Source: Ceratodon purpureus (lineage: Eukaryota; Streptophyta; Bryopsida; Pseudoditrichales; Ditrichaceae). From it: a stretch of DNA of 64,000 nucleotides. Below are positions 12,838 to 55,838 of this stretch, in pieces (the first letter of the stretch is position 1; each line of letters opens with the position of its first letter). A program made the position numbers and the translations under genes. Location: NCBI GenBank assembly GCA_014871385.1, contig CM026421.1, positions 12,334,603 through 12,398,602 on the forward strand. The letters run 5' to 3'. The notes under the pieces are model-generated. The model searched no databases, was not told the origin of the DNA, and saw only the letters and a program-made list of their open reading frames with translations.

Positions 12838-12953
12838 TTAGGGCCGGTTTATACACAGCCAGGGGCCGGCCCCAAGGCGGTCCCGATTTTGGGACCTTCC
12901 AGCCCCCAATCCGGACTAACCTTTGGGATCCAGCCCAAGGGGCATATAAACTC

Positions 12954-14982: not shown

Positions 14983-15026
14983 GCATCTTCTGACTTCAGG
15001 AGGATTTTTCCTTTTCCGCGTCACAT

Positions 15027-21264: not shown

Positions 21265-22800
21265 AGATGGTGCCACGCTGATGCTACCGCAAAGGATTAG
21301 AGCGAGCTGTTTTTAGCATGGTTTACGTCGTCGCCGTCCAAAGCGCAGATGCTTGGTCTTTACAGGATTAGTTTATTGAGTATCCAATTTTTGGTGAATG
21401 TTTGAAACATTTAGTGTCAAGCGCCTTGAAAAATGACTACGGAATACAGTGCCCCTAAGCTCTTTTTCGACGGATCCAATTTTGTACGGCTATTATTATT
21501 TGGAATATACTTACTTGAAATCCACATTGTTGAGAGTAGTTCTCATCTTCAATGTTGTTCTTTAGCCAGTCTTGCATGGATTCACTTGGATGTTGTTGAT
21601 TGCTGAGCGGGACGTAGGAGAGATTCAGCTTTAACGTTGAAACAAGAGTCTCAGTAGGAGTGTTCCAGGGTGTTCTGCTGAAGTGCCAGCTGGAATCGCA
21701 TTTGTGACCGTCAGTGCCTTAAGCTCTTTTGTTGTGAATCTTGAGCTTCAAACTATGTTATAACCATCAATACGATTAATCTTGTTAAATCACGCCCTGC
21801 GTACATTCTAACATGTTGTTCAGTGGCGTCGAATATTTAGAACTTCAGCAGAGATGTTTCAGCTCAGGGAGAGTAATATAATATGAAAATATAGAAAGAA
21901 TAAATCCTCTTATTTGGTACTCTGTGAAAGTCAGTTCAATTTATAAAGGGTGTGTATAAAATATTTATTAATTATGTCTGATTAATCATTTTTTTAGGAT
22001 AATATGATGTTTGAAATTTTGATAATTGTGGATGCTAAATAAGAGACCTATAAATTAGTTTATATTATATTACTCAAATACTATTATTAGAACATATGGT
22101 TTTCGATATCAAGAATATTTTTTCCAGATGCTGAGTTAGTAGTCTAATTTTACAATTTTTTTAAGCCAAACCATACAGGATAATATCAAATCAATTGGCG
22201 TATGCATAAAAGTTTTATTTATTTCAGTTTATAAAAGGGAATGCTACTGTTTGATTTTATTATGATTTATAAAATAAAATTTATTTTATTAAAGGAGTGA
22301 AATATAAACTGCTAATTACTGCAGAAATTATTCAGAAATCCTGCAGTTGGTAAAATCACCCATATCTCTGACTAATAGTAAACATTGTGCTCACAAAATG
22401 GAGTGATTGTTGTAGATACAAATTAGTGAAGGTACAGAAATGCAAGAACCTCTGAACTAGCCAGATTCAATTCTATAATCCTTTCACTTCTGATATGTTT
22501 TCATTAAGTCCAAAGTGCTTCCAATTTGATATGCTGCCACTACTAATATATTTTGAATTTTGATATTCTGTAAATACTGATATGTTTTCATTTTGATATC
22601 ATTAGAATTTTTTTTCTAAGTCTTTGATTATCCAATTTTGATTTTGAAAATTGCTTTCAAATTTTTTTTGTTCTATATTTTGGTTAGTTTCATCCAACAT
22701 TTATTCTTGGATTGATATTTCTGAACTGCTAATTACAAAATTCAAGTACAATCTCAATTTTCGAGCTTTTTACACGATTTTTTCCAATTTCCATGTTTGA
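21265..22800. other. AT-rich intergenic DNA
   Basis: No gene seen. GATATGYTTTCA-type blocks at 22490-22610 recur in inverted orientation near 31330-31410, evidence of a dispersed repeat family. Confidence 0.5.
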
Positions 22801-22833
22801 ACTTCATTTTTATAAATTAGGGATTTCAAAAAC

Positions 22834-23700
22834 TACACGTCATCATGAACAACAAATTTTTTTTAATACTTGAAATTGAACTAAATAATAGGATAGTAGA
22901 GGTAAGTTGCCTTATATACCATTGAGCATCCATCATCAGTTAGACATTTATAAGAAAATAATAATTATCGTATGTTCTCAAATTGTTATTCACCTTAAAA
23001 ATAGTAGATACATCTTAGTGGTGAAAAGAGATTATGTCTTATTTGTTTTTATTCCCTTCTTTATTCCCTTCTTTATTCCCTTTATCTTTCTTCTTCTCTC
23101 CCTCTTTTCTCTCCTTCATCGGTCTTCTTGTACCCCTCTCGACCTCCGTTGTTCTTGATGACGTAGAATTTGTAGGATGTTAAATAATAAAGAGATAAAA
23201 GAAGGGACATAACGATTATAGAACATTTTTCAGTTTTATTTTATTTTTATTTTTTATTCTCTTCTTCTTTCTTCTACCTCTCAGTTTCTCTTCATCTTTC
23301 TTTAGTTCCTTCCTTTTTTTTTCTTTTTTTTTATTTAAAATTCTCTTCTTCTTTCTTGTAGCTTCCATTTCCCTTCATCTTTATCCTCTTCATATTTCTT
23401 TATTCTCTTCATCTTTCTTTATTTCCTTCGTCCTTTATTTGTTTTTTTATTCCCTTCATCTTCTTTATTCTCTTCATCTCTCTTTACTCCCTTCATATTT
23501 CCTTATTTTCTTATTTTCTTATTTTCTTTTCTTTTTTATTTTTTTTATTTTTTATTTTTTTATTTTAGTTCCCTTCTTCTTTCTTATATTCTCCATTTAC
23601 CTTGAGTATTTATTCCCTTGTTATTTCTTCTACCCTCCATTTTCCTTCATATTCCTTTATTTCCCTCCTCCCTTTTTTTTTAAATAATTTTTTAAATTCT
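22834..23700. repeat. polypyrimidine-rich repeat with a conserved GATGACGT motif
   Basis: From 23041 the plus strand is almost pure C/T for about 650 bp (CTTCTTTCTT and TTCATCTTTCTTTATT units). Embedded at 23147-23180 is TTGTTCTTGATGACGTAGAA followed by TTTGTAGGATGTT. An inverted, diverged copy of the same motif lies at 22834-22858. Two further copies, in the inverted orientation relative to 23147, lie at 31995-32035 and 32290-32325 beside a purine-rich tract. Confidence 0.7.
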
Positions 23701-24163
23701 CTTCTTCTTTCTAACTAATAGTTTATAATGTTCAGATGGACACACGCAACATGTACAAAAGAGGACCAAGTTTATGCATTCCGAAAGCATCTCTAAATTT
23801 TCAGACAGTAAAAACAATTAAGTAAAATGCTTCGTAAAACCAAAGGAGACGGACTGGACAGAACCTTTAGAAGGAAGATCAGGATTTCAAAAGTAATGGC
23901 CATTGAATAAAAAGATCAACAAGCACTAGTTCGTCTTAACCCGTAAACAAAAAGAATAATCGAGGATCATTTGTTCGTTTAGATTGCATTTACAATAGTT
24001 CAAAACTGAATCTGGAAGATTTGGATCCGAGGGTCAATCTATTGTAGTTCCAAGAGCTACGTGCTGTAGTAGAATGTGTGGATCAACATTGACATTGCTT
24101 CTGCGGACGCATGCACAGAATCCAGCAGCAAGACGTTTGCTTGAGCACATAGATAAGATCGTT

Positions 24164-25636
24164 TCACGCATCATAGGGGAAGGCTGCCACACGCTTCAAT
24201 TCCGCTAGAGTTCCATTAAGCAGTGGGCGCTGCTCCTCATTAACCTTCCCATCCCACTGCGCCACCCACGCCGGATCTAGCTGGGTCTCACAGAAGGGGC
24301 AGACGTGACGGTCGGAGTCAATGAGATCTGCCACGCAAGTGCCATGGAGGAGGCACCCACAGGATCCCAACACTGCCGCCCTTGCTACAAAACCTTTGGA
24401 GCAGATAGGACACCATTCGTTTAGGACTATAGGTTGAACTGCCGGTAAAGACTGTCGGCGTGCGTAAGGTTCCGGCAGCGGACGTGGGCGCAAAATCAGA
24501 TTCTCCTGCTTAGCTTTCTTCAAGGCGGCCTCAGCTGCATCGCGTGTAACTCTGGTGGAGTCAGAATCTGCGATGGCCATGGTGAGCGGTCCACTCTCTC
24601 CTTCGAGTAACCGTATCGTCTCGCGCGCGTCCATCAATCCTTCCTGCACAGCAACTAACTGAACGGTCAGCGCCCGCACCACCTCCACTTGGGCCTTGTA
24701 CTCTGCTGCCGTCCCTGCGCGGAAAAGTTGCCGCTGCTCCACCAAAGCTGCTGCGCTCCGTGCTTCCAAATCAAGGATCTCGTCATCTGTGCACCTGCTC
24801 AGCACAGCCAGTGCGTCAGCACGTTGACTTTCTACCACTCGCTGGGCCTCAATGGCGGTATCATGGGCAGATTGTGCCGCATCGCGGGCCCTCTGTGCTG
24901 CATCAACTACTCGCGGCGTGCAACGAATGAAGGTCGACCCCAGGGAGAGGCCCTTGATTATGTCGCACAGGCCTTCAACCTGACGACGCAAGGCAACGGG
25001 ACCAAGCTTGCGAGGATTTTTTGATGCTGTTGCAAGGCGCCGACTACGACGTCCTTGAGCTTCGGCGACCCAGTTCACATCCAAGCTCCACACGAAAGTT
25101 GCGTAAGCGGCCTTCAGGAAACGCATCGAGTAGTAAGCATTGTCGGGGCGGTGACCGTAGACCCGATAGTTATGCGTGGAGAAGAGTCGTGCCTGCTCTC
25201 TGTTGGTGCAGTTCAAGATCTCATAGCGATTTGGTTGCATGCCTGGCCTCCAAACCTCTTTTATATCCGCCTCCAAGATGTGGGGATACGCCTTGCCGAC
25301 CTCGTCTACCATAGGCCCCGAGTCACACAAGCCCACCTTGTTGTGGAAGAAGTCGTCATCGTACTCCGCATTGCGGCCTGCAAGCGCTGGAGCTGCGGCA
25401 AACATGGCGTCCTGTAGAGGGCCAGGGATTCCCGACAGGTTGAATGGCTCAAGCCACTCAGAGTTTCCAACCTCGTGCGCCAACGCAACTTCCGCCAAGT
25501 CCACGTCCTGCATTTGAGAAGATGGACCCGATCGCTCTCCTTCTTCGTCGCTGCAGTCTGATTCAGCGCCTCCAGATCGACGTCGCTGCTTGGATGGTGT
25601 GCTACCGCCACGAGACTTTCGTTTCTTAAACACCAT
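24164..25636 (-). CDS. C4HC3 RING-like protein, copy 1 of a local family
   Basis: 490 codons, one coding exon, ATG at 25636 directly after a splice acceptor (TACAG|GG, 25643/25642). Order of parts: basic, Ser-rich nuclear-type N-terminus (residues 1-25, KKRKSR and KQRRR clusters); a conserved globular block about 50-240, with LAHEVGNSEW, NYRVYGHRPDNAYYSMRFLKAA and VNWVAEAQGRRSRR; a coiled-coil-like Ala/Gln/Arg-rich middle about 245-380; then a zinc-binding finger at 409-449 with ligands C-x2-C-x13-C-x-C-x2-H-x2-C-x11-C-x2-C, followed by a conserved WVAQWDG. The ligand order C4HC3 is that of RING-CH fingers, so ubiquitin-ligase activity is plausible but unproven. It is a tandem paralogue of the gene at 28476-29948 and related to the one at 37658. 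No homologue outside this window comes to mind. Confidence 0.85.
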   Translation of the reverse strand: MVFKKRKSRGGSTPSKQRRRSGGAESDCSDEEGERSGPSSQMQDVDLAEVALAHEVGNSEWLEPFNLSGIPGPLQDAMFAAAPALAGRNAEYDDDFFHNKVGLCDSGPMVDEVGKAYPHILEADIKEVWRPGMQPNRYEILNCTNREQARLFSTHNYRVYGHRPDNAYYSMRFLKAAYATFVWSLDVNWVAEAQGRRSRRLATASKNPRKLGPVALRRQVEGLCDIIKGLSLGSTFIRCTPRVVDAAQRARDAAQSAHDTAIEAQRVVESQRADALAVLSRCTDDEILDLEARSAAALVEQRQLFRAGTAAEYKAQVEVVRALTVQLVAVQEGLMDARETIRLLEGESGPLTMAIADSDSTRVTRDAAEAALKKAKQENLILRPRPLPEPYARRQSLPAVQPIVLNEWCPICSKGFVARAAVLGSCGCLLHGTCVADLIDSDRHVCPFCETQLDPAWVAQWDGKVNEEQRPLLNGTLAELKRVAAFPYDA

Positions 25637-25642
25637 TTTTCC

Positions 25643-25845
25643 CTGTACCAGAGAAGCAGATGAAGCTCATGTTAGTTAGGAGGAGAACCAGGACCATAAA
25701 AAAACCAACGACATATGTACTGAATGGAAGTTGGAACTACACATTGCAACAAGGGAGTGTAGGAATTACCGGCACAGAGAGTCTTGGCTGAAGCAAATTG
25801 GGAGCTATTGCAATAGACGAAGACGAAGACGAAGACGATGGATAC
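25643..25845 (-). other. predicted 5' UTR intron of RING-like copy 1
   Basis: Minus-strand donor TTGAG|GTATCC (25846/25845) and acceptor GTACAG|GG (25643/25642), 203 bp. The acceptor lies 6 bp before the start codon. The paralogue at 28476 has an equivalent 206-bp intron, which supports both. Confidence 0.6.
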
Positions 25846-25919
25846 CTCAATGCGCAGCCATTGCGCCCAGTCAGGATGTCTCATCTCTGGGCGAGAAAGT
25901 CATGGAATGGCAATGACTA

Positions 25920-28475
25920 GGTAGAGTAATGAGTTTCTAGGGATGTTCAGGGTGATCCCCTTTAGTTTTAGTAGCGGTAATGATTTTAGAGTTTACGTTT
26001 TGATCAAGCCGCCTTCTACATGCATAGATGTCTATCCTTCCATTTAATTCAGAGTGGATGTGCATGGTTGAGCCAGCCTAGTTCTTAAGTACTTAATTCC
26101 TATAATGTCACCCAAAGTAGCAATGCGGTTTGTGCTAGAGTATGATGCAAGGACTCGTACAGCAGTATACAGTTTAACCAGGGGGTCTCCTCGTGGGAAC
26201 TGAGTGACATGAAATTAGTAGATTTGATATCCTGGAGCAAAGCATAATAATGAAAGTAACACCCAACTCAAATTAAATGCAATTGCTGAAAGGAAACTCT
26301 TTATTTGTAGGAATATGTGAATAAACTTAAAAGACGGATGTGAGCCAGGTGACAATGGCACATCCGGTGGAAGCATGGATGAGAAATCTTTCGTGTTTTG
26401 GGCGTTGACTCAAACTGGGCATGGACGAATACAGTTAACGAGAACATGAAATATGGTTGCATGGATGATGGCGGGATGGAATATGCCCATTGTCTAGAAT
26501 AGCAGCGAAATGAAAAAGGACAGACGAACTTAGAGTTAAGGAAGCGGGCCTAGGTTCATAGGAACTGAGAGCGGGTACATTTCATCAGCAGTACATTGTT
26601 TCTAAGGCGCATACTGTTTGTAGATGATTTCAAGTTGCCACGACATTGGAATTCAGATTTCAAATGGTTCATTAACAACAAGTAATTAAAAATATTATAA
26701 AGAAAAAAAATTTAAAATTGCAGTTGAATTACAGTACTAGATTGGCTGATAAATAGAATATTTCTTCAAGTAGTAAGAAGATATAGAGTCAAGGATGATA
26801 CCATACTTTCCACAATAAAAAATGAAATAATAATTACAAAAATAGAAAACACGTGTGATGATGAGCGTTGGCTAACAACTAGAATATTTTAGAATTTCCT
26901 AATTGACCAGAAGGCTGGTTAAGTTTACTTTAATGTCAAACAAATAAAGGGCGGATGAAGCAAGAAGAATGGATAGTGTCAAGGATGACGTCATAAGGCC
27001 TGAAGTAATTTCAAAATGATTTTTTGAAAAAAAGGTGGATCTGAAGTAAGAAGACAATGTATAGTAATAAGGGTGACATCATACTTCTCATAGTAATTTT
27101 AGAATAATTATAATAAAAAAATAAAATTTAAAAGAATTTTAAAAACGAACTAAAATAACTAGCACAATTGAATTTCTCCACTGACTCTTGAGGTAGTAAA
27201 GTTTCTTCAAGTAGTAATATAGGGAGGTAGCACGAGAAGGAGATATAGAGTCAAGGATGACATCATACTCCCAATAGTATTGTGGAAATAATAATTAAAA
27301 ATAAATAAAAATAAATAAGTAAAAAAAACACGTGTGATATTTAGCATAGGCTAGCAAATTAAAAAAAAGGGAAACACTTAATATTTAGGAAAATCAACAA
27401 ATGAGTATTTGGCTTATGATTTTGGATTCCATTTTATTGCAAACATGTTTGGAGATTAAAGTCCAGAGTATTCGCTTCTTTGTTTTTTGATTAAAATTGA
27501 AATTAAAATTAAAGTCTGATCCACGTAGTATTAGTTTTTTATTCATATGCTAATATAGAAATTAAACCCATAGTATTTGTTTTCTTAAATCTAATCCCCT
27601 ATTCATTCTCCGCTCTGAACTTAATCCATCTACTTCTCCGAAAATGCTACCACATCGACTGAACTACAACTTCTGCTCTAAAAAACAAAATAAAAACTAC
27701 AACTTATCCCGCACTGAGATCTACCATATTGGCAGCATGCAAGGAAGGTAAGAGAGCAAACTCCACCAACCACTAACATATGAAAACGGCAGGAGATTAG
27801 CTTCAAGCATGCAAGTGCATTCTGTCGCTCAAAGCACAATAACAAGCAGTCTTATGGAACTCCAAATCAACAAGTGCTACCACATCGATTGAAATACAAC
27901 TCCTCAGACACTGAAATCTACCGTACTGGCAACATGCAAGTAGGGTCACAAAGCGGAAACCATATACCAAGGACACAATATATTCTAAGCACATGGAGAG
28001 TAACTTCAAACAAGCACGGTTAAGGAACTCGAGGTCGACAAATGAATTCCACCCCACCAACTAGATTAAGGTAAGAATCAAATTCAGAGGATGACGGCAG
28101 CTCAAAGATGCTATTTGGTATACAAGTTATAACTGTGTTTATTGACCGGATAAAAGTTTATAAGACTAGTCCACTGTAGAGCGTGGGTAAAGTTCGACAA
28201 TGCTTCAAATGTTAAATCAGTCCGAAGAAGCAATGCACTGGCTTCATCTGAGATTAGCCGGTTCTATCCTAATTTTTCTTTTTGCGCACAAAGAGGCAAC
28301 CAGAGGACCCCGACTATGCACATGCCACAAACCACATCCAATGGTATCCAAAAATGCAAACATCTGGGACCAAAAAAGATCACACTATCCACAGCAACTT
28401 GCCCTGCTAACAAAAAGCTAAGATGCATCCAAAATTCTGGATTCGCGTCGAAGGAGCTGAAGCAGAGACCGCGGC
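25920..28475. other. spacer between the two RING-like paralogues, with degenerate repeats
   Basis: No gene seen. From about 26690 to 27360 a degenerate unit (AAGAAGATATAGAGTCAAGG, then ATGACATCATACT, often ending near AAACACGTGTGAT) recurs near 26770, 26955, 27045 and 27230. From 27640 to 28060 there is a direct duplication with an offset of about 235 bp, sharing GCTACCACATCGAYTGAA and ATCTACCRTAYTGGCARCATG. Confidence 0.55.
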
Positions 28476-29948
28476 TCAGGGGCAGTTGCCGAAAATTGAC
28501 GCGGACGCAATGTCCTTCAGCTTCGCAATGGTCGCTTCGACTGCGGCTTCGTGGTTCTCCTTCACGGTGCCGTCCCATTGAGCCACCCACGCTGCCTCGA
28601 ACTCCTTTTCGCAATTAGGGCACCAGTACGTTCCTTCATCGATCATCTCCGCAACACAGAGGCTGTGGAAAAGGCACCCACAGGAAGCTAAAATGGCAGC
28701 TTTTGCAACGAAACCTCTGCTGCAGATGGGACAAACTTCGTTGCCGCCGTTTTCGATGGAGGGGACAGACTGAGCAACCGGGTAATCGAAAAGGGGACGC
28801 GGACGCAACACCAAATGACCGCGTTTGGTAATCTTCAGGGCAGCTTGCGCAGCGGCGAGGTCTGACTTCGCATTGGCGTGATCAGCTTTGGCTTGGGCGA
28901 GGGGGCCCGTCTCCTCCAGGAGGGTGCGGATAGTGTCGCGTGCGCACATCTGCTGCTCCTGCAACTCTGCGAGCTGCATTGCCAAATTCCGCGCCACTTC
29001 AGCCTGCGCCTTGTAAGCCGCCGCTGTCCCGATTTTGAACAAGCTCTTCTGCAAGGTCGCCGCGGCGTTCCATTCTGCTTCCAGCTTCGCCAATCGATCG
29101 TCCGAGAGGGTGTTGACATCGTCCACTGCTTTCCGGTGTTGTCGCTCCAGATCGCGTAGTGCCCCTGCTTTCGCCACCTCCGCCGCTGCCGCAATCTCCA
29201 AGTTCTTCTCTGCTTCCTGCACAGGCGAGAGAGACGACCGGCTCGAGGATGCATCACCTGCCAAATCCACAACAATCTTACAGAGCCCCTCCACTTGCCG
29301 ACGTAGTGCAATTGGCCCCAGCTTTCGGGGGTTCTTCGTCGCGCTAGCCAAGCGCCTAGACCGACGTCCTTGCGCTTCCGCGACCCAGTTGACATCCTTC
29401 CCATGGACAAACGTAGCGAAAGCCGCCTTCAGAAAACGCATTGCGAAATAAGCATTGTCTGGCCTGTTTCCGTAGACGCGGTAGTTGTGCTGGGAGAATA
29501 ACTTCGCCTGGTCTTTGTCGGTGCACTGCGCGATCTCATAGCGGTTTGGATGCGCTCCAGCTCGCCATATCCGCTTGATGTCGTCGTCGAGGATCTCCGG
29601 GTAGACCTTCGGCACTTCATCCACCGTCGGACCTCGGTCGCAGAGTCCCACTTTCTCGTGGAAGAAAGCGTCATCGTATTCGGCGTCGCGACCTCGAAGT
29701 ACTGGCGCCGCGGCAAGCAACGTCTCGCGCAGCTCCTCTGGGATACCTGTGAGGTCGAAAGGAATGTCGAACTCGGAGTTACCGACCTCGTGCGCCAGCG
29801 CGATTTCCGCGGAGTCGATGTCAATGCCCTCCCAAAACGAGCCAGCGTTGTGCTCCTCTTCTCTAGAATCTGTAGCCGCTTCCATAGACGCAGCCTTCTT
29901 CGCAGGGGTGTTGGAGGGACCGGACTTCCTCTTCCTCTGTTGCACCAT
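28476..29948 (-). CDS. C4HC3 RING-like protein, copy 2 of a local family
   Basis: 490 codons from the ATG at 29948, exactly the length of copy 1; the frame is open further upstream only through a leader exon and a non-ATG codon, so I start at MVQQRKRKSG, 17 bp after a splice acceptor. Same architecture as copy 1: Lys/Arg-rich N-terminus, conserved block with ALAHEVGNSEFDIPFDL, HNYRVYGNRPDNAYFAMRF and VNWVAEAQGRRSRR, a longer Ala/Glu/Lys coiled coil (about 245-380), and the finger at residues 406-446 with identical ligand spacing, then WVAQWDG. The finger and the conserved block are more alike between copies than the coiled coil, the pattern expected when both proteins are still under selection. 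Tandem, same strand, about 2.8 kb apart. Confidence 0.85.
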   Translation of the reverse strand: MVQQRKRKSGPSNTPAKKAASMEAATDSREEEHNAGSFWEGIDIDSAEIALAHEVGNSEFDIPFDLTGIPEELRETLLAAAPVLRGRDAEYDDAFFHEKVGLCDRGPTVDEVPKVYPEILDDDIKRIWRAGAHPNRYEIAQCTDKDQAKLFSQHNYRVYGNRPDNAYFAMRFLKAAFATFVHGKDVNWVAEAQGRRSRRLASATKNPRKLGPIALRRQVEGLCKIVVDLAGDASSSRSSLSPVQEAEKNLEIAAAAEVAKAGALRDLERQHRKAVDDVNTLSDDRLAKLEAEWNAAATLQKSLFKIGTAAAYKAQAEVARNLAMQLAELQEQQMCARDTIRTLLEETGPLAQAKADHANAKSDLAAAQAALKITKRGHLVLRPRPLFDYPVAQSVPSIENGGNEVCPICSRGFVAKAAILASCGCLFHSLCVAEMIDEGTYWCPNCEKEFEAAWVAQWDGTVKENHEAAVEATIAKLKDIASASIFGNCP

Positions 29949-29964
29949 TGCGGCGGTACGTTCC

Positions 29965-30170
29965 CTGAGTAAACAACACCGGGTGATGGCAACATGCAAT
30001 TGGTACGAGTACTTTAACAAAAAGCAGAATACTATGCACAATGCAGTAAACACGTGAAAGCAAACAAAGGGCAAGGCAACTGACAGCAACTAGAAGACAC
30101 TGCGGTGATGAAAACAAGTGCGGGAGTGGTGGGAGTTGAGCGTGGTCTACACTGAAGTGTAGAGTAGTAC
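29965..30170 (-). other. predicted 5' UTR intron of RING-like copy 2
   Basis: Minus-strand donor CAAGAG|GTACTAC (30171/30170) and acceptor TTTACTCAG|GG (29965/29964), 206 bp, matching in place and size the 203-bp leader intron of copy 1. Confidence 0.6.
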
Positions 30171-30199
30171 CTCTTGGCATGAAGCTTCATGATGCTCGA

Positions 30200-31720
30200 T
30201 TAGGAGAGGATGCGTACAACAACCGATAATTTAATGCATGTTGAGGTTGGGACAACAAGTGCTAATTGTATGTGGGGTGATTTTCTGTAGAGATATTGGA
30301 ATGATTACAACGTCCGAGTTGATAGTTTGCTACAACAAGCCGTTCAGTGCTGCAAGTTATCAATTCTGCTTGGTGATGACAGGGCTGTAATCATACTCAT
30401 CAGTTACAAGGTGGGCACATTTCACATATGGCCTTTGTCTTCCTGATCTATGTCCTTTCGCATTCACGTGTCCAGTCAAAATGAAACTCTCACTCACGTC
30501 TAGTAGTGGAAAGCAGTTATTATAAAGCTTGAGAAAATAAGAAATGGAGATATCCGAGTACATAAAAGTTCACTGAGTCTGACTGCTTGGGCCCTATGAT
30601 ACTGATAAATTTGTAGCGTCCCATGTATGAAAGTTCATGTATGTTCGCTCAGCACTTCTTATTCATGATTAAAAAGTGAAGAAGTGTTGTTGAAACACAA
30701 TAATTCTCAGAAATTCTAATATTAAGTCCAAGAGCTGAATATATCCATGAAATAAAGGATTAGTTATCCAAAAATAAGAATTGAAACCTAAAATATCGAA
30801 AAAGAAAACCTAAAATTTTAATTACACAGTCAAGAATCATCGCTTCAAGCAAGGCCCAAGTAACCAGAAACTGTCCCAAAAATTTGGGACCGTATCAAAG
30901 TTGGCACAATGTAACTATTGAAAGCATATCAGCACGCAGACCACATTACAGCATGTCGATTTTGCAAACAAATAAAAATAGAATTCGCATGTGAACACTC
31001 CCTAGGGTTTAATTTGTATATTAGCATTGAACTGCGTCTTGTACGAAGACGTATGTTTTTTCCAATTCAAAGTAACAAATACATGAAGTTTAACTACAAA
31101 TCTGTGCGTGAGCAGCTAATACGAAGGCCGAAAATAAGAAATGAAATTTACTTTCAGAATCAAAAACGTTAGAATATCAACAAATAAATAAATTATCAAC
31201 AAGTCAGACCTAATGCAGTCGACTTTAAAAAAGAGGAATGAGCAGGGTCGAAATTAAATAACCAAGGGTGCTGAGAAATAAAAAGCATATAAAAAATTCC
31301 TTTCAATTTTGATATTGAAATACCTCTCAAAATTGAGAGCACCTCGGCTTTGACAGCATATCAAGATTGAAAGCATATTAGATTGAGCATCATCATATCA
31401 AAATTAAAGAGATATCGGAATTGAACTTGGATGTGAACATGTTTTTCATTCAGTGATGATAATTGAGTTCATTCCGTGATGATGATTGTGTTTTTTGAAT
31501 TCAAAACTTCAAATAGTTGAGATTCAAACACACAATTTGGAAAAAAATTCAGGTGGGAACCCCAGACAACGACAATGTAATTCACATTCACAATTAATAA
31601 TGCAAAAATAACAATTCAAAAAATTAGAACCTTGCCGCAATAAAAAATGCCGCAATAAAAAATGAAGTAAAAATAGAACATAAAAAAATTAGAGAATTAG
31701 ATATCCAATGTCCACTATAA
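30200..31720. other. AT-rich intergenic DNA
   Basis: Likely promoter of RING-like copy 2 at its left end, then AT-rich DNA without a gene. GATATGCTTTCAA-like blocks at 31330-31410 are inverted relatives of those near 22490-22610. Confidence 0.5.
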
Positions 31721-31729
31721 TAGAGGTAG

Positions 31730-32340
31730 AAGAGTGAGAGGGAGAGAGATAAGAATAAAGAGGAGGGAGAGGGAGAGGGGGGGGGGGGGGGGGGGGGGGG
31801 GGAAGAGAATAAAGATGGAGAGATTAAAAAAAAAATTGGGAGGTAAGGTGGGGATAAAGATAGATGAAGGGAACTGAGAAAATGAATGGAATTAAAATTA
31901 AATAAAATTAAAAAGAAAAAGAAAAAGAAAAAGAAAAAGAAAAAAATATGTTGCGTAACTGTTATATTATTTATTTATTTTTTAATTATTTTGATATGCT
32001 ATGAATTCCACGTCACAAAGAACAAGGGAGGGAGAGCGGGTGGAAGAAGAAATATGAAGGCGAGGGAGATGGAGAGGTATAGAAGAAGACAACTGGTAGG
32101 AAATGAGCTAAAAAATCGTGATAGAAGAAGAAAGCTTGAACTGTTAAAAAAAGATGAAGGAAATAAATAAAGATGAAAGGAATGTTCATATAGGAGGTAT
32201 AAGAAAGAAGAATCAATTTTTTTCTTTTTTTAAAATACAATAATAAAATATCTCCTATAACTAGATATCCCTTTTCTAATATTTTAATTTTTCAATATCC
32301 TACAAATTCCACGTCATCAAGAACAAGAGAAGGCAGGAAC
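31730..32340. repeat. purine-rich repeat with poly(G) run and two GATGACGT-type motifs
   Basis: A GA-rich tract with an uninterrupted run of 26 G at 31777-31802, an (AAAAAG)n stretch near 31910-31945, and two copies of a motif of the form ATTCCACGTCAHCAAGAACAA at about 32007-32027 and 32308-32328. It is the inverted counterpart of the pyrimidine-rich repeat at 22834-23700. Confidence 0.7.
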
Positions 32341-32541
32341 AGACGAGGAAAGGGACACAAAATTCCCTTCTTTTCATAATAAATTAATTTGGAAATTCCA
32401 ATTTATTTCTCTAGCTTGATTGATACTATTTGAAACTACTATATAATAGTTATACTTTATAAATCTACTTTGAAGGTCCCATTAAATTCTCTTAATCCTA
32501 GATTTTGAATACATGAAGAATATAAACATATATTGTTTTAA

Positions 32542-32543
<2 letters not shown>

Positions 32544-32604
<61 letters not shown>

Positions 32605-32605
32605 G
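32544..32605. repeat. (TA)n microsatellite
   Basis: About 28 uninterrupted TA units at 32544-32600. A second run lies at 32757-32806 and a third at 33511-33592, each near imperfect ATGTATA-type repeats (32900-33020). Confidence 0.95.
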
Positions 32606-32754
32606 GGTGTGTAATTACACCTACTATACATGTATTCAAATTTATTTATTCAACTATATGTGTTTGACTACTGATGCGTATACTATCTATCAAAATGAAT
32701 TTATATATGAAAGATGTGTATATATATACACACGTATTATATGTTTATTTTTAA

Positions 32755-32756
<2 letters not shown>

Positions 32757-32811
<55 letters not shown>

Positions 32812-33020
32812 TACATATATTTATACATATATATAAATGTATATATGTATGTCTATATATAAATATATCATATATCCCTTCTTTAATTTTTTACTTTTTC
32901 ATTACAGTAATGTATAATAGTAATGTATGATGTACAACAATAATGTATAAAAATAGTGTATAACAGTAATGTATGATGTATAACAATAATGGATGATGTA
33001 TTACAGTAATGTATAACAAA
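32757..33020. repeat. (TA)n microsatellite and GTAATGTAT imperfect repeats
   Basis: An uninterrupted TA run (32757-32804), then TATACATA-type units, then about nine imperfect copies of AACARTAATGTATGATGTAT-like units to 33020. Open frames through here are artefacts of the repeat. Confidence 0.85.
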
Positions 33021-33507
33021 AGTATCGTGAGCCTAGATTTTGATACTTGTAATCTATATACATCACCATTAAGTTTTTTTTTAAGAAAAACTTATGTTCA
33101 GTTATAAAAACAAATAAGACCTAATTCCTTTTTGCCACTAAAATGTATCCACTATATTAAGGAGGTGATATTTTCACAACATGCAATAATTATGACTTTA
33201 TTCTAAATGTCTATCCGATGATGGATGTCCGACGGTATATAAGGCAACCTAACTCTACAGTTCCATTATTTGGTTGCTGGAAAATATTATTACAAATCTA
33301 GAGATAGGCTTCTTTGTAGGTGGCATTAGATGAACGGAAGTGACCTTTGCGATTACTTGTTTATTCCATGGTTCCCAGTGCTTCCAATATGACTAAAATT
33401 AACAATCAGAAGGTTACAACACAATAAATAATATAAAATTCTTGGTTGTTCTGTACATGTGCTCTTTATCTTTCATATGTTTTGAATTCAACAAAGTTTT
33501 AATTAGA

Positions 33508-33510
<3 letters not shown>

Positions 33511-33585
<75 letters not shown>

Positions 33586-33592
33586 ATATATA
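33511..33592. repeat. (TA)n microsatellite
   Basis: About 40 TA units with one interruption at 33571. It opens Tyr/Ile-repeat frames on both strands, which I reject as genes. Confidence 0.95.
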
Positions 33593-33599
33593 TGTTTGT

Positions 33600-35560
33600 A
33601 TATGTGTTTACTTTTTCTTTTTCTTTTGGTAGAGTCAACTGAAACCATTTATTCCACCACAAGAGGAGAAATAACAAAGTGCTACCGCGAAGCCAAGTAG
33701 GCATTTCTGGATTGTTTCGTTTTGTCACTTTATCATAATCACACCATAGTGAGTATCTATGAGATGCTATCAAATATAAAATTACGTAGCACTCATTATA
33801 GTTGCCAAATATGGCATCCTGTGTCTATTTAAAAAAATTGGATCTTATGGTGGTGCATGTATGGATTAATTTTTTTTATAAAAAGAAACATGGATAAAGC
33901 CGAATGTCTTTGTAGCTTGAATTTCCCAATTTTCCTATAACAGGGTTCAAAGAATATTGTTACTTTGACGCCCACCAAAAGTGAAGAACCAGGTAAAATG
34001 GTTACTATGGGCGTGTAAAATGTTTATTCCTTGACCCTACTAGAGGATGCTGAAATCAAAGAAAGTTCCTGCATGCGATCGATCACGAATCACCCGGCAG
34101 TCACGGTCATTGAGCCGTAGACTTCGATGGTGGACCACGTAGTGCTGAATGCAGGCTCCCATGCTTCAAGCCCAAGGGGCACTGTACTCGAATCGGCGGA
34201 GTGCTGCACATGTCCCATCGCGCCGGCATCTGTTCACTCCCACTCCGTTGCTGTAATCATCAACTAAACGCCCCCACTATGTTTCTAACAGTCCAGTCAC
34301 TTTCACGGATCAGTATTTGCCCCCCGAATCCAATTCAACTAGTTAATGGATATTTAATTTCTAACTTGGTACAGCAAGCAGTCGATTGGAATTTACACCT
34401 GCCTTGTACCACGGTCTGAATCAACATTATCCAGTCCTCCAGTTTGAGCCGCCATACTTTGGCTGGTACAATTGTAACAATATTCTTGAAAGTCAAAGGC
34501 TCCTCACAACTAACGAATCAACCAAGCTCACTCAATCGTCAACCGTGTATCCATCCACTGTTACCAACATTTCGCAAAATGTGCATTTCTTTGAGAATCA
34601 GAAGCGTACTGAAGCCTACAAACTAAACATAGGTATCGCCGATGCCTATTACCACATAAATACTCTTTCCCTATAGTTCAATTTTTTTATGTTTGGATCA
34701 TTGAACCCTGGCATATTGGTGGGATTTGCACGCATCATGGCGCAAAAATAAATATGTTTTTATTTGTCAAAGTAAGTATTTTATATAATGCACAAGTACA
34801 TGTAGGTCATATCCAAAAGTGGTACCAAAATGTGTCCGAGTTGATGTATCGAATGATTGTTTCTCAGGATTTTGTGTAATTAGGACAAAACTTACTTTTT
34901 CAACCAAAATACCTATTAAAAACTTTTAATATTCTTCAACACGAATGAATTTTTTTGGTTTGATTGCTGTAAGTGAAACCACATTTGGCATTCTCATAAT
35001 TAACTTTATTTCGAAGATGGACATCTTTGACACACTTGCACGAGCTGAAATTAGCTTAATTGTGCCCAGACCACCTAGTTACTATAGCGAACAAAGTTGC
35101 AAGTCGCAATCATTGACTAATTATTCTTTTACTTATTTATTATTTTATACACTAAATAATTAAATTAAATTATTTTTACGATAAATATCATGTTGACAAA
35201 TATTATGTTTATAGTATGCGGATATTCGCTTTTAGACAGTCAAGTATTCCACTTCTGATTTTCTAAATATACTAAACTAATTTGTTTGACGGGACTTTGA
35301 ATCATTTTTAAAAAAACAGTTTTAAACAAATGACTAATCAAATATTACTTGTCCGTCAATTATTGTTTTGAATTTTATTTATTGTCATCATTACTTCAAG
35401 GTGTCACAGTTGTGGCTAAATGTATTTAGATGAAGAGGCATCATAAAGAACATCTGGACTAGTGAATTTTGTTTGGTTGTTCTCTTTTTTCTGTTGAATG
35501 ACTTTCAACATTACCATGAAACCGTAAAGGTTCGATTTTGATAGACTACTGGTCACCTAG
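33600..35560. other. AT-rich intergenic DNA, nothing recognised
   Basis: A somewhat GC-richer patch at 34060-34400 carries short frames without recognisable motifs. No element ends or RNA genes seen. Confidence 0.5.
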
Positions 35561-35573
35561 ATCCACCATCCTA

Positions 35574-36566
35574 GGGAGGCAACTCACTTATTATGAGCAT
35601 GGCTGTGCGGCAGAATAAGTCAATCTTTAGACTTGTTATTCCATTTTTAGTAAATAGAATCTTATTATGCTTTATTCTAACTTGTACGATATAAAATTCT
35701 ACAACTCAACAAAGTCTAGCACACGAATACGTCATAGAAATTCAAAATATACATATATACAACTATCTTATATAAAATAGTAAGTTACAGTCAAGTACAT
35801 GTATGCATTACCATTTTCTTGAATTTAAAGTCATAACTAACTTTTTTTATAATTAAAGCTTTCCAATTTGAGTATTAGTTTGAAATTATAAAACTAATAA
35901 GTCGAAAACAGAAAGTACAAAACTTGGGGCTCCAACAGCTGATGCTCGGCCCCAGCAGCTGTTGCCGGAGGCCCTAGCAACTTTTGCCGGACACCCCAAA
36001 CACTAACTTGGATTACTTGGGCAACAATGAATTCTGATATTAGAATAATTAATAGACGATGCCATACGCCAAACTTTTGTCTGTTAAATTTATAAGTACT
36101 TAAAGGAAGTAGCAAATTCATCCTAATTTAAAACTTCGCCAAATGTGCTTAACCCCACATACAATATTGAAAAAAATATAAAGAATCATTATATTGCATA
36201 GTCTTTTGGCAATGTACTAAAAAAACAAACTAGCTATATAGATGTGTGTGAAGAACCTCATTATGCATTTATTATGCCTTTATTACTTTTTCTTTTATGT
36301 TCATAATAAAATTTAAAACATGTCTCCAAATTTAAGGACCTTCTTGTCCTTACACCCGTGATAATAAAACATCTTATTTTACACTTATTATATGTCATAT
36401 CTAATTATAGATAAGCAACTCTGAAACACACAATACATATTCTGAAAGCTCTCAATGTCTACTTTCTAATGAATTATATATCATCATAATCAGAAGTGAT
36501 AAAGTCATAGTATTTTGTAAAATAAGACATAATAAATCTGCTTATAATAACCACGAGTTGCCTCCC
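35574..36566. mobile_element. possible inverted-repeat element, 12-bp perfect termini
   Basis: GGGAGGCAACTC at 35574-35585 is perfectly inverted at 36555-36566. Immediately inside, TTATTATGAGCA on the left matches TTATTATAAGCA on the right in the same inverted sense. The 993-bp interior has no gene. No clear target duplication was found, so this is tentative. Confidence 0.35.
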
Positions 36567-37477
36567 CGGGGCTTGGGTCTAGAGTGGAATCTTCGAAGAT
36601 TAATAAGTTCTGCATTGTAACTCCTAATGCTCTAAAATTTGTGCCTTCAGAAAGCTACCTTTGAGTGGTACATGTTTTAAAAATTTCACAAAATAATAAA
36701 TTTATGAAATATTATTGTAGCGGACCTTTAAGTGCCAGAACCACAATACGGTCTCAAGGGCCTTTAGAGGTTAAACACAAAGAACCCAATAACGGTACGG
36801 AGTATATTCCTAAAATCAAGGGTAAAATACATGCAGAAGTATGGTATCCCGTAAGCAATTTTCCCTCCAAAATACATCCAAACTTGAAAACGTACACCTT
36901 GCATTAATTAAGTTCAGCTCTCTGGATCTTGGCAATTCAGAGGCAAGTTTAGTTCCGGATATTATATCTTATTTCTATATTCTGGTTATAGACTTATGCT
37001 GGATTATCTGATTCCATATTAATAATATGGCATGTATTAATATTTTCCTCTGAAATCCGACTTACTAAATAGTTTTACTAAATTTCCGTCAATCTTTCTA
37101 CGCTGTACCATACGGCAGTACAACATAATAAAGGGGGATGGAGCTGTAGAATGAGGCACTCACTCGTGTTGGGGGTGGTACTTTAAAATCTGCTCCCGCC
37201 AGATTATAGATCATTTGCATTCTTGCAAAGTCAGAGCATCTGCCGGGCTACGGGCCTTCATAAGCTGCTCTAGACATGAACTTCAGAGTGTGCTATAACA
37301 TGACTGTGCTCTGTTAGCTTTGTTGATCTTTTCATGTGGGTGCCGTCTGTGGTGGGATCTTTGTAGTTTCGAACCAGAGCGGAACGTAAGCAATCGCGTG
37401 CATGTCTAGGTGAGGGGCTCTAAATTCACATTCGATACGTATCAACAGCGCTGTCGAAGAAGCTCAGTCAATCGCAG

Positions 37478-37647
37478 GTACTTTCTATTATTGTTTGTAT
37501 CGAGTCGATTACCATATGCATGCGAAGGTGACGTCTCCTTCCCTCCCACTCATTCTTGATGTTGTTGTATCAAATATTACGTGATTTTACTGATCTCTAT
37601 ATTTCCCCTATACATCATCGCTGACTTCGGTGTTTTTATTGACTCAG
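37478..37647 (+). other. predicted 5' UTR intron of RING-like copy 3
   Basis: Donor AATCGCAG|GTACTTTC (37477/37478) and acceptor TTGACTCAG|CTTG (37647/37648), 170 bp. The start codon follows 10 bp after the acceptor, the same layout as in the two tandem paralogues. Confidence 0.6.
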
Positions 37648-37657
37648 CTTGAAGAGA

Positions 37658-39637
37658 ATGACGAGCAAGGCGAGGTTGAATGTTGTTCGCCAGACACAAC
37701 CTACTGATGATCATGCACAGCAGATAACCAATGGTGATCATGCACAACAGATGACCATGTGGCAGAAGCCCTTCGACCTGGGTAAACTGCCGCCGACGGT
37801 CACGACCGAGCTGACGAAGCGGACACCTTTACTTCTGGGGTCGGACATGGCGACCTACTCCAAGAACTTCTTCAGAACGATTGGAGGACTCTGTGCCTCT
37901 GGAATTGCTGTGGAGAACCTGGGTAAGGAGGACCATGGAGTCCCAATGGATGATTTGGTGGCCACATATCCACTAAATCGACACGGGAACCGTCATTCCA
38001 TGAAGCTTATGGAGGATCGCGCTGCAGTCACTGAGGCACTGGACATGTACCAGCGAGTTTATGGAGGCACGCAACCTCACAACGGTGAGTTCGGTACTGC
38101 ATTTATCCGGGGGCTTGTATTGACATTCCAGCGTTCCACGAAGGTCGATTGGGCCAAACACGCTGCAGACTTCGCGAAGAAACTGCTGGAGAACCCGCCG
38201 CTGAATCCGCAGAAGCAAGCGCCACCGTGTCTAAGAGAGCAGATTCAGGAGATTATAAATGTTTTCTGCCACTACTTACGCATGGCCTACGCTGATAGGG
38301 ATGCATCTGTATTAGAGATGAGGCAGCACAACTTACCGGTTAAGCCTGCTGATTTCCCCACCCGACACCCACGAATATCTGAGGTGGTGAGCCCTGTTAA
38401 GCAGCCACAGTCTGAAGAGATCTTGCAGAAAGTGCGTCAGCCACATCCGAAGGAGAGCCTAACGCCAGTGCGACAGCCACGCAGCGCGGGTCGAGTCCAG
38501 ACTGCCAGCCGAACCCAGTCGCCTGGATGGTTGCCACCAAAGAAGGAAGAAGCACATCCTGTGGAGAAATTGAAGCAGAGGAGGTCGAAGATGGAGTCGC
38601 AATGGGAGGCCGATATGAAGAACCTACGTGAGGCCGAATCTGAGCTCCAGATTCTGAACACTTACAAGCATGAGCTCGACTTGTCCGAGGAGGCGAACTG
38701 GGAGAGTATGGTGGCAATCCGCGCGAGGAAGAAGCTTCAAGGATTGTCACCAGCACAGCTATGCACGCTTGAGGAGGAGTTGCGATCGAAGACGGCAGCG
38801 GCGAGCTCCATCTCTAAGGAAGCTACATCGCTGGACAAGCAGGTGGTCGACTTACGTGAACGAATTACACTCATTCGGAGGACCACACTCGAACTGCAGG
38901 ATGCGCTCGGGGTTATTAGTGCCGAGATAGACGTTAGCATTTTACAGAACAGTAAGATCAGTCCGAAGCAGGTTTTGACCAGGCTGCCGGTGACCCTTGC
39001 TGTTCCATGCAAACTCGAGGCTGGGCTTCCTTGCGTTCTCTGTGGTCGCTTCTGGGTGGAAAATGCAATTGTCTGTCTCCCGTGTAGATGTTTACTCCAC
39101 CCTGTGTGCATGCTGAAGGTGGCGTTGTCGCCGATTCCGCGATGTCCCTTCTGCAGCCATGTGCCAGGTGAGCTATGGCGTGCTCAATGGGGATACACAC
39201 CTAGTAGCGAGGAGTTGCTCACCGCCGCCATAGGTGCTTGTATTGCAGGTATGGATGCTGCCGGGTGGATGAAGCCCCTTGATGCATCTTCCGCGCGGGC
39301 CAGGGTGGAATATATGCAGCATGGCTTGGGTAGCCAAGAATCCGTGGCGAAACCAAAGCGTGCTTTGACAATGGACCGCGAGAGCCACAACCAGCCTCCT
39401 CAGAAACGAGCACATTTGGAGATCCCCGCAACTGAGCCAGTCGTCTTGGACCTTCCTTCAATTATGGAAGAGGTAAATGCCATTGGGATATCCGCAGCAC
39501 AGGAAGCATCGGCTGTAGCGACGCTGCAGGAGACTTATTCCCTAGGTAACGAAATGTCCCAGGAGGTGTCCGGCGCAATGTTGCAAGAAGCGTTTTCCGC
39601 GGCTGCAGCACCTGAAACCACCGGCCTCACCGACTGA
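37658..39637 (+). CDS. C4HC3 RING-like protein, diverged third member
   Basis: 659 codons from the ATG at 37658 (a TTG three codons earlier is not a likely start). The N-terminal block aligns with the tandem copies: PFDLGKLPPTVTTELTKRTP against PFDLTGIPEELRETLL, a GGLCASG against GLCDRG, and YQRVYGGTQPHNGEFGTAFI with VDWAKHA against YRVYGNRPDNAYF with VNWVAEA. A Gln/Pro/Ser-rich linker (about 230-305) precedes a coiled coil (about 310-440). The finger runs from residue 459 to about 499 with the identical spacing C-x2-C-x13-C-x-C-x2-H-x2-C-x11-C-x2-C, then WRAQWG. A 150-residue C-terminal tail with Ala/Glu-rich low complexity is unique to this copy. Opposite strand to the tandem pair and much more diverged, so an older duplication. 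Role unknown; ligase activity is inference from the finger. Confidence 0.85.
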   Translation: MTSKARLNVVRQTQPTDDHAQQITNGDHAQQMTMWQKPFDLGKLPPTVTTELTKRTPLLLGSDMATYSKNFFRTIGGLCASGIAVENLGKEDHGVPMDDLVATYPLNRHGNRHSMKLMEDRAAVTEALDMYQRVYGGTQPHNGEFGTAFIRGLVLTFQRSTKVDWAKHAADFAKKLLENPPLNPQKQAPPCLREQIQEIINVFCHYLRMAYADRDASVLEMRQHNLPVKPADFPTRHPRISEVVSPVKQPQSEEILQKVRQPHPKESLTPVRQPRSAGRVQTASRTQSPGWLPPKKEEAHPVEKLKQRRSKMESQWEADMKNLREAESELQILNTYKHELDLSEEANWESMVAIRARKKLQGLSPAQLCTLEEELRSKTAAASSISKEATSLDKQVVDLRERITLIRRTTLELQDALGVISAEIDVSILQNSKISPKQVLTRLPVTLAVPCKLEAGLPCVLCGRFWVENAIVCLPCRCLLHPVCMLKVALSPIPRCPFCSHVPGELWRAQWGYTPSSEELLTAAIGACIAGMDAAGWMKPLDASSARARVEYMQHGLGSQESVAKPKRALTMDRESHNQPPQKRAHLEIPATEPVVLDLPSIMEEVNAIGISAAQEASAVATLQETYSLGNEMSQEVSGAMLQEAFSAAAAPETTGLTD

Positions 39638-39639
39638 GA

Positions 39640-41160
39640 TTCCCTCTCGAAGTACTTCAGATCTCCTCAATACTCTGAGATGGTAGCGGTTATTATACAG
39701 CTGATTTTGATTTGTACTTAGGAGGTGCCGATTCGGTTCGTATTTTGGAGACGTGCCAGTTTTTTGGATATCCAAGAACAATAGCCCTGGATTTTGAACA
39801 GCCATTTTTGTTTAAATAAATATATAAAGCGTAATAAAATATATATTATTATATCATTGTGTAACTCGTCGCATATGTGCACTGAACACCTCGTTCTTTA
39901 CTAGTGTAGATCCTACCCCCTAAACCGAAGCAGCTGTACTAATACAGTCGCTTTGATCAGATTACACTTCTCGCTTTGATCAGATTACACTTCTAAGTTC
40001 AGTTCAGAACCAATCAAGTACCTAAATCTGCTTCTCTAATCTTGGTAAAATAGAACCTCATAATAAGAAGTGGACATGAAAGTTCAGAAATCTAATTCTG
40101 GAAAATCACAACCTCTGAAGTTCCAACAAGCGGTTATCCACTATCCTCAATATCAACACTTTAAGGCATCCAATTGCCCCTTGAATGCTAAACACTGTCT
40201 CTCCTAGTTTATGTCAGAAGCACCTCACCACTACTCTGCAGTTTCTGTAGATGTTGCCAAATACTCTTGCAGCCTCATATTTGCATCCATTAGTTCTAAA
40301 GAATGAAGAATAAATTATCCAGGAATCCACTCTTTCCCACTGAAATTTTTAATGCCAACCACACTATTTGAAGAAAGAGTAGTTTACTTTGATGTGAACC
40401 TGAAACATAATAATTCATCCGCCCATTTCTCATCCATCCTTAAAAGAATTGAGAAATGTTGAAGTTTCTTTAAATTTTAGTGATTATGGATATTTTTTTC
40501 CACCTTGCCTTACTTCCATTTTTTTTTTTATTTGATTTTTTATTCGGTTTAGTCCGGGATGCACACTATTTGAGGGGCAAGATTAGTTCTGTTTGATGTG
40601 AACGTGCAACTTTATTTTTCATCTATGCATTTATCATTCATCCTTAAAAGATTAGTTCACTTTGAAGTTTCATTTAAATTTCAATGGTTATAGATATTGT
40701 TATTCACCTTACCTTGCTTCAATTTTTATTTATTTTTTATTTTTCATTGGGTTTAGTCCAGGATGCACACTATTTGAGGGAAGAGATTAATGCAGTTTGA
40801 TGTGAACCTAAAAAACTATTTTCCATCCATCCATTTGTCATCCATCCTCAAACGATTAGTTCTCTATGAGTTTTTTTAATTTTTTTACTAATTATAGATA
40901 TTGTCCGAGGACACTGTACTATTGAATGGATTCAAAGCAGTATGAGAACAGGACAACATATGGCATACGAATTGTCAACATTTGAAAGCTTCTAAAATGA
41001 AACTCATTGAATTCTTAGTTTCACAATTTGGGGCCATAATAGTTTGTTTCAACACTTTGAGAGAACGGCTGGAAAATAAAAAGTTCCGGGTCTCTATATG
41101 CCAATCCAAACAAAACCACCCTGACTCTATGCACATTCCGTTCGGAATCTCACTGCTCTC
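39640..41160. other. intergenic DNA with tandem repeats
   Basis: CGCTTTGATCAGATTACACTTC is directly repeated at about 39949-39992. From 40359 to about 40905 there are three diverged tandem copies of a roughly 203-bp unit, each beginning near CACACTATTTGA and containing TTTGATGTGAACNTG and CATCCATCCTYAAA. No gene seen. Confidence 0.7.
40359..40905. repeat. three tandem copies of a ~203-bp unit
   Basis: The anchor GATGCACACTATTTGAGG recurs at 40558 and 40762, with an older copy at 40359. Copies differ by small indels in their T-runs. No coding potential. Confidence 0.75.
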
Positions 41161-41164
41161 CCAA

Positions 41165-44100: not shown

Positions 44101-44339
44101 GAGCTGCTTCAAATTTCTAAATGTGGGTGCACACTTCGTTGCGGGATCCTCGGATACAGTGCTCCATCTATCCAAAGATCGATGTGAGTTTCCCTTCTAA
44201 CTCTCCTCTCTGCGAAGCTGGCTCTACTAGCCTGGTCATCTAATCGGGTACCTCTTCGGACAAGAGGAAGGTACCTTGCATCCATATGTATTTGAGGAAT
44301 GAATCCTCCTGTGGTGTTCGTGACATCCCGAAGTGCCAT
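41165..44339 (-). CDS. transposase-like protein, three or more exons
   Basis: I assemble exons on the minus strand as: upstream to 42978; 42865-41787; 41650-41165 (stop). Intron 42977-42866 (112 bp, G|GTAATT to TTGCAG) is phase 1 and intron 41786-41651 (136 bp, GTGAGT to GCGCAG) phase 0; both restore the frame exactly. The first assigned exon is open from about 44175, and a second open frame (ATG at 44339) probably supplies the N-terminus through another splice or a frameshift I cannot place. About 920 residues. Order: long coiled coil (Leu/Glu/Gln-rich), a basic linker, then a region with FVLKLDEAEI, VEWHLSADMKTIKCMNGL, MNCIYCEQ, and near the end FVEKFGSLSVWSCQGMEKSHH. These fit a widespread, poorly named repeat-encoded family with 'GDYK', 'CxYC' and 'QGxEK' motifs and candidate acidic residues in the LDEAE, SADMK and GMEK blocks. 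The family match is from memory. No terminal repeats found. Confidence 0.65.

Positions 44340-53761: not shown

Positions 53762-55838
<2,077 letters not shown>

Follow-up and report, generated by a model that had tools for sequence, protein, structure and literature searches.

We have analysed a 64-kb stretch of the genome of the moss Ceratodon purpureus (C1:12334603-12398602; "the window" hereafter means this whole stretch), in which three genes, designated A, B and C, encode proteins that combine a coiled coil with a Cys/His finger. We conclude that A, B and C are very probably element genes of a giant cut-and-paste DNA transposon, which carries its own transposase, two types of RING/coiled-coil protein and a further open reading frame, ORF D. 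At the level of sequence comparison, the bounds of the element at terminal inverted repeats, its dispersal with differing flanks, its gene order, the RING-type finger and coiled coil of its products, and purifying selection on their genes are established by the observations that follow. An initial annotation of the window had reported three intact open reading frames, as we also find, and had regarded them as a local family; copies on other contigs, which share the element ends and differ in their flanks, indicate instead that the genes are dispersed with the transposon. The element and its genes are located as follows.

19171..44866, no strand: whole transposon, 25,696 bp, CATTAGAA...TTCTAATG; from the shared right end, an inverted-repeat search and the junctions of other copies
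19171..19221, plus strand: left terminal inverted repeat, about 51 bp, imperfect; aligned with the right end
44816..44866, minus strand: right terminal inverted repeat; from probe ends, inverted-repeat search, junctions and end alignment
24164..25636, minus strand: gene A, B-type RING/coiled-coil protein, 490 amino acids; 99% copy on contig C6
28476..29948, minus strand: gene B, B-type RING/coiled-coil protein, 490 amino acids
37658..39637, plus strand: gene C, C-type RING/coiled-coil protein, 659 amino acids
19913..21112, plus strand: ORF D, 399 amino acids, element gene

The right end of the element was found with a probe taken from a copy on contig C12, namely 10 kb of DNA surrounding its C-type gene. 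Among the 47 probe matches listed, 17, the window's included, terminate together, at one base or 2-3 bases beyond it (query positions 8125 to 8128), an end that corresponds to window base 44866. The inverse of this end was located at 19171 by the inverted-repeat search, and similarity to the C12 copy starts at 19174. All 15 of the right ends that were fetched (of the 17, one was unfetched and one is the window's) carry TTCT[AC]ATG; two of their flanks look alike, leaving 14 different. CATTAGAA stands at the start of all five other left ends fetched. For the C12 copy the left flank consists of N and was unusable, and 30 of 30 readable bases agree between its two inverted repeats. Element lengths computed from junctions are 25,696 bp for the window, 26,542 bp at C6:38.6 Mb, 23,907 bp on C4, 23,959 bp at C6:60.6 Mb and 21,974 bp on C13. 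The window and C6:38.6-Mb copies are 99.2-99.5% identical in the fetched parts around A and C and have different flanks on both sides; similarly, the copies on C12 and C4 share 99.65% identity over 4,869 bp and have different right flanks. Such near-identical copies with differing flanks point to transposition, and not to segmental duplication. The element thus has the inverted ends, sharp borders and differing flanks of a terminal-inverted-repeat DNA transposon. Gene B is also flanked by a 23-nt inverted repeat (27547/31005), which was considered as a small element of this kind and rejected as a chance occurrence, being unique in the window, with no target-site duplication and no extension.

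Copies were counted in the complete assembly (362,488,568 bases in 151 contigs), and all genome counts given here are lower bounds, since they come from the best candidates scored (67 of 1842, 87 of 2361 for gene B and 107 of 1066 for the transposase). A search with the DNA of gene A found 46 matching places; gene B identified at least 87 B-type loci, and the 84 matches of gene C merged to at least 64 C-type loci. Stops are present in many of the listed loci of both types. A and B represent one of two paralogous types and C the other, and each type comprises diverged lineages, with identities of about 74, 54 and 50% to gene B and of about 74, 50 and 32% to gene C. Neighbouring B-type and C-type genes lie on opposite strands in 52 of 52 pairs, found at 40 of the 64 listed C-type loci, and 34 of the 64 have a transposase match as well as a B-type gene nearby. 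With T for the transposase, the arrangements at these 34 loci are B- C+ T- (18 loci), T+ B- C+ B- (10), T+ B- C+ (3), B- B- C+ T- (2, the window type) and T+ C+ B- (1). Of the 107 transposase matches listed, 59 have a B or C gene of the lists within 20 kb; with random placement in 500 trials, for which some contigs were assigned an assumed 18 Mb, the mean was 2.3 such matches and the maximum 8. ORF D had no Pfam match above chance, and a frame-broken homologue of it occupies the corresponding place in the C12 copy.

Contig C6 has 110,524,308 bases, or 30.5% of the assembly, and we take it to be the sex chromosome because its size and share agree with those given for the U and V chromosomes of C. 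purpureus (>100 Mb each, about 30% of a 360-Mb genome) in the relevant portion of PMC8000587. Among the matches listed, 45 of 64 C-type, 70 of 87 B-type and 78 of 107 transposase matches are on C6; these shares derive from the best-scored candidates, and the copies are not independent of one another. From this distribution we infer that the element is scattered through the moss genome, above all on the sex chromosome.

The transposase was recognized as three coding blocks to the right of gene C.

42940..44196, minus strand: first coding block, N-terminal region, 77% identity to the C12 copy
41772..42875, minus strand: core block, with KLDEAE (D1), SADMKTI (D2), CIYC (C(2)C) and HICTLH (H(4)H)
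41330..41653, minus strand: last block, HVLVKH..VWSCQGMEKSHH, with a second H(4)H and the proposed catalytic E

The first block was compared over its full length with C12 alone, and with four other copies over its last 23-32 residues. The core and last blocks were compared in 8 copies (window, C12 and L083-L088), with 54-96% identity to C12 in the other seven, and the core block has at least 107 matches in the genome, at 59-100% identity. Across copies the motifs read KLDEAE, [SAT]ADMKTI, CIYC, H[IM]CTLH, a second H-x4-H and QGMEKSHH; in L083 a stop replaces the Q directly before the proposed E. In our reading, with residue roles assigned by eye, these motifs would be the D, D, C(2)C, H(4)H and E of a transposase, and C(2)C and H(4)H lie, again by eye, between the second D and the last E in 8 of 8 copies. 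This layout resembles that of the CMCT clade (EnSpm/CACTA, Mirage, Chapaev, Transib, Plavaka, ESTA and Lanisha), for which the section of PMC12730594 concerned gives C(2)C and H(3-4)H between the second D and the last E, mostly 5'-CA..TG-3' termini, and target-site duplications of 2 to 5 bp. The termini of our element, CATTAG..CTAATG, fit the CA..TG rule.

Judged by published description, the element is within this clade likeliest to be Lanisha. This name was put forward for a cut-and-paste superfamily that resembles EnSpm (Maumus, McDaniel, Carey 2020, Repbase Rep. 20:2521, as described in part of PMC12730594). Lanisha as there described agrees with the window element in its CMCT-type C(2)C and H(3-4)H and its CA..TG termini, and two of its authors, Carey and Maumus, are among the authors of the Ceratodon genome preprint according to the reference list in PMC8000587; it is this similarity of description, together with the overlap of authors, that makes Lanisha the likeliest assignment. 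On the side of difference, target-site duplications were not found in the present elements.

The proteins encoded by A, B and C share an N-terminal block (N-block), a coiled coil and the finger, as the initial annotation had described. BLASTP gave 54% identity between A and B over 482 amino acids, and between A and C 26% in the N-block (E 1e-16) and 38% in the finger (E 3e-8). The general build is a basic tail (in A and B), the N-block, the coiled coil, the RING and then W-x-A-Q-W, which follows the finger in all three genes. The N-termini of A and B are rich in Lys and Arg and resemble a nuclear localization signal (NLS). Shortly upstream of the ATG of both A and B (before 25636 and 29948), CAG|GGAA was read by eye, and this could be the acceptor of an intron in the 5' untranslated region. 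For B the model gives a high-confidence coiled coil, and its position and those of the fingers, which were found by pattern search, are as follows.

28818..29225, minus strand: coiled coil of B, residues 242-377 (about 136 residues), AlphaFold2 model, predicted local distance difference test score (pLDDT) of about 90
24290..24412, minus strand: finger of A
28611..28733, minus strand: finger of B
39032..39154, plus strand: finger of C

When all six frames of the 64-kb window are translated, the finger C-x2-C-x13-C-x-C-x2-H-x2-C-x11-C-x2-C appears with exactly this spacing in 3 places, one in each gene, and a looser RING pattern found just these 3 fingers. The fixed spacing reported by the initial annotation therefore holds for the window's three genes and is not wholly general: at fetched loci it was exact in 39 of 48 loose-pattern matches (which include the window's A and C, and one C12 gene twice), and the 9 deviating fingers have x12 for x11 in the last loop (7 fingers), x14 in the first loop (1) or Tyr for His (1). 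All eight ligands were intact in 46 of 55 loci, the remaining 9 being without one or two; ligands 3, 4 and 6 were kept in 55 of 55, with Cys as ligand 4 in 55 and His as ligand 5 in 53. This count, from which 2 more loci were dropped (the match fell short of the finger) and which includes the window's genes and one C12 gene twice, is less biased than the invariance of ligands in our multi-locus alignment, which is partly circular because its rows were chosen by the loose RING pattern.

Eight Cys/His ligands in cross-brace spacing place the finger in the RING superfamily. The initial annotation had known of no named family with this layout, and we observed that the finger of B matches RING domains in the PDB, among them the Pirh2 RING (4.7e-5), RNF4 (3.4e-6, a two-RING tandem entry) and many others; the same search also lists a PRDM9 chain of C2H2 fingers (4.4e-5), in which no stretch passes. 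Two ligand-preserving shuffles of the finger, used as controls, matched no RING, with best E values of 0.028 (a PHD finger) and 1.9. A profile built from all three fingers matched Pirh2 at 1.1e-5 and the RNF4 tandem-RING entry at 7e-6, each RING of the latter at about 0.03. Among family members, 13 of 28 matched zf-RING_2 at E up to 0.01. Judged by these matches, the finger is a RING, with similarity that extends beyond ligand spacing. A structure model from 3 sequences left the finger unresolved; a second, from 28 sequences, predicted strands at 418-420 and 426-428 and a helix at 429-438, with block-mean pLDDT of 65-84 in the finger region. Structure comparison with VIA-align yielded aligned coiled coils (span 238-385) and was uninformative on the finger and N-block. 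IMG/VR, queried with the full alignment and with the finger, gave no viral relatives, a search of prokaryote genomes likewise gave none, and a PHROGs search returned nothing convincing.

The ligand order of the finger is C4HC3, which is also the order in RING-v (RING-CH, MARCH type) domains, and to this extent the RING-CH likeness proposed in the initial annotation stands. The spacing does not agree: RING-v has seven residues between ligands 4 and 5 (PMC6118397, in its account of RING types) and the window finger has 2. The spacing is instead that of RING-H2, from which the finger differs in having Cys, and not His, at ligand 4, followed by His at ligand 5; it is, as had been annotated, distinct from the plant RING-HC and RING-H2 types. 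Cys at ligand 4 and His at ligand 5, with two residues between them, would place the ligand set outside the seven plant types given in that account (PMC6118397). The layout of A, B and C resembles that of Bre1-like coiled-coil/RING ligases (PDB 8t3t, 4r7e), which gave weak profile matches. In Bre1 a coiled coil precedes the C-terminal RING. The window fingers differ from Bre1 in ligand 4 Cys, ligand 5 His and the lack of a basic linchpin, and the Bre1 matches are at the general RING level or barely above it.

Selection was examined through ratios of nonsynonymous to synonymous substitution (dN/dS). For the tandem copies A and B, the comparison proposed in the initial annotation, dS is saturated and the value was not used. 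Between element lineages (69-76% protein identity), seven comparisons at dS 1.05-1.46 gave dN/dS of 0.12-0.18, with bootstrap limits of 0.08-0.23; two more at dS of about 2 gave 0.17 and 0.21, and one further comparison was saturated. By these codon comparisons, the RING/coiled-coil genes are under purifying selection between lineages. When distinct lineages of C-type genes were compared, constraint was strongest in the finger in 4 of 4 cases, with pN/pS, the corresponding ratio of proportions, of 0.05, 0.10, 0.10 and 0.16. Among B-type genes at dS 1.25-1.46, the N-block was lowest in 3 of 4 comparisons and level with the finger in 1, and in a more distant B-type comparison, B-L070, the finger was lower than the N-block. 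Identity between A and B is 72% in the N-block, 63% in the finger and 40% in the coil. Of the selection on the finger that the initial annotation had proposed, the purifying character, the retention of ligands and the faster drift of the coil are borne out, and the restriction to the finger is not, the N-block being the more conserved between A and B.

Several observations weigh against the transposon interpretation or against parts of it. Target-site duplication is absent in 4 of the 5 elements for which both junctions were read, and the fifth has AT on both sides, a 2-bp match alone. Pfam and PDB sequence searches with the transposase gave no transposase match and no link to RAG1 or CACTA. 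No listed B or C gene lies near 48 of the 107 listed transposase matches, which may represent cut-off elements, elements with neighbours too diverged for the lists, or elements lacking the genes; likewise, 24 of the 64 listed C-type loci have no listed B-type gene within 20 kb. At C1:13.09 Mb, beside one of the most diverged transposases (59% identity), there is an N-block (L089:4416-5201, minus strand, E 2.5e-34 to C-type) and no finger in the 7.5 kb read; the N-block is possibly older or more general than the finger, and the finger, on this sequence, may not be part of every element lineage. A and B stay below the cut-off of every Pfam RING model (zf-RING_2, 19.6 and 20.0 bits against 27.3, E about 1e-3), and gene C has no Pfam RING match at E up to 10. 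Active RING E3 ligases have an Arg or Lys linchpin after ligand 8; neither residue occurs at this site in any of 30 distinct fingers, where we found S (11), E (8), N (4), D (2), A (2), G (2) and Q (1), and this speaks against ordinary E3 activity. Finally, four near-identical copy pairs gave dN/dS of 0.24-0.56 with wide limits, reaching above 1 for one pair, which is as expected if copies decay after insertion.

That the RING genes have some kind of role for the element is likely. In the mechanism we propose, a DDE-type transposase of the element's own, with RAG/CACTA-like motifs, would be served in trans by B-type and C-type RING proteins that act in the nucleus, as the NLS-like N-termini of A and B suggest. 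The two types would pair through coiled coil and RING. Bre1-type and BRCA1/BARD1-type RINGs form dimers, and two co-carried paralogues of the same build suggest a hetero-oligomer. Such a complex might be a ubiquitin ligase directed at the transposase complex or at host silencing, or else a RING-scaffolded, DNA-binding partner of the transposase. The type of finger makes a ligase role plausible, and we would put ubiquitin ligase activity at somewhat less than an even chance.

CACTA elements encode a second, TnpA-like protein, and we entertain, more tentatively, that the RING/coiled-coil proteins are of this kind, binding element ends or subterminal repeats as partners of the transposase, with the RING as a dimer module devoid of ligase activity. 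The greater conservation of the N-block than of the finger between A and B, the N-block gene without a seen finger beside the 59% transposase, and the missing linchpin in 30 of 30 fingers are all in keeping with such a role; the constraint on the C-type finger in all four lineage comparisons perhaps exceeds the needs of a bare dimer module. It is distinctly improbable that the RING genes are passengers, taken from the host and carried without a role for the element: gene number and arrangement do vary among lineages, and 48 of 107 listed transposase matches stand apart from listed B/C genes, but purifying selection between lineages and a strand arrangement that is constant in 52 of 52 pairs, across diverged B-type and C-type lineages, run counter to it. 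A host gene cluster formed by local tandem duplication, to which the tandem, same-strand placement of A and B would correspond, is hardly conceivable and is refuted by the enclosure of all three genes within the element ends and by the near-identical copies with differing flanks on other contigs.

Other features were observed in and around the element. Between gene C and the transposase, a 204-bp repeat is present in two copies and the start of a third (40375-40855). Directly right of the element end is a 463-nt inverted repeat (45024-45486/49228-49690, 98% complementary, 3.7 kb apart), which has the look of another mobile element or of a pair of solo repeats in inverted orientation. To the left of the element lies an intact PPR gene (14994-17897, 20 PPR_2 stretches), probably a host gene. 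The window also contains a 356-amino-acid open reading frame at 55782-56852, with a match to HSDR_N_2 below threshold (E 8e-4), and a 13-nt unit in a tandem array at 12876-13304. A protein-kinase-like open reading frame, recognized by eye (L041:8928-9938, minus strand), adjoins the C12 copy on its outside, and similar DNA is present on C11.

A literature search found no paper that describes RING genes in elements of this kind, the Repbase Lanisha report and the Ceratodon genome paper lying outside that search. The nearest counterparts are two Chapaev subgroups and RAG1, in the same broad CMCT clade, in which transposase and RING form one fused protein, with the RING adjoining a Chapa domain, and the RING of RAG1 is active as a ubiquitin ligase; no other transposable element then known encoded a RING, as put in the relevant part of PMC4411706 (2015). 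The window element differs from these in having two or three separate RING/coiled-coil genes and another ligand set. If the clade assignment holds, elements of the window type would be the unfused counterpart of the RAG1/Chapaev RING and a second setting, beyond Chapaev and RAG1, in which a RING accompanies the transposase of this clade. A further-reaching view, which we consider unlikely as matters stand, is that the opposed, separate RING/coiled-coil pair belongs to the selected core of giant RAG/CACTA-like transposons throughout a whole plant lineage, elements that have amplified on a moss sex chromosome; were it true, ubiquitin-type control would be rooted more deeply in this transposase clade than has been thought. 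In the aggregate, what appeared to be an orphan plant RING family becomes a mobile-element system, by which its abundance is explained, and RING genes of this kind could be miscounted as host E3 ligases. Recently moved copies, such as those with 99.65% identity, should be useful for studying how giant transposons spread and build up on UV sex chromosomes.

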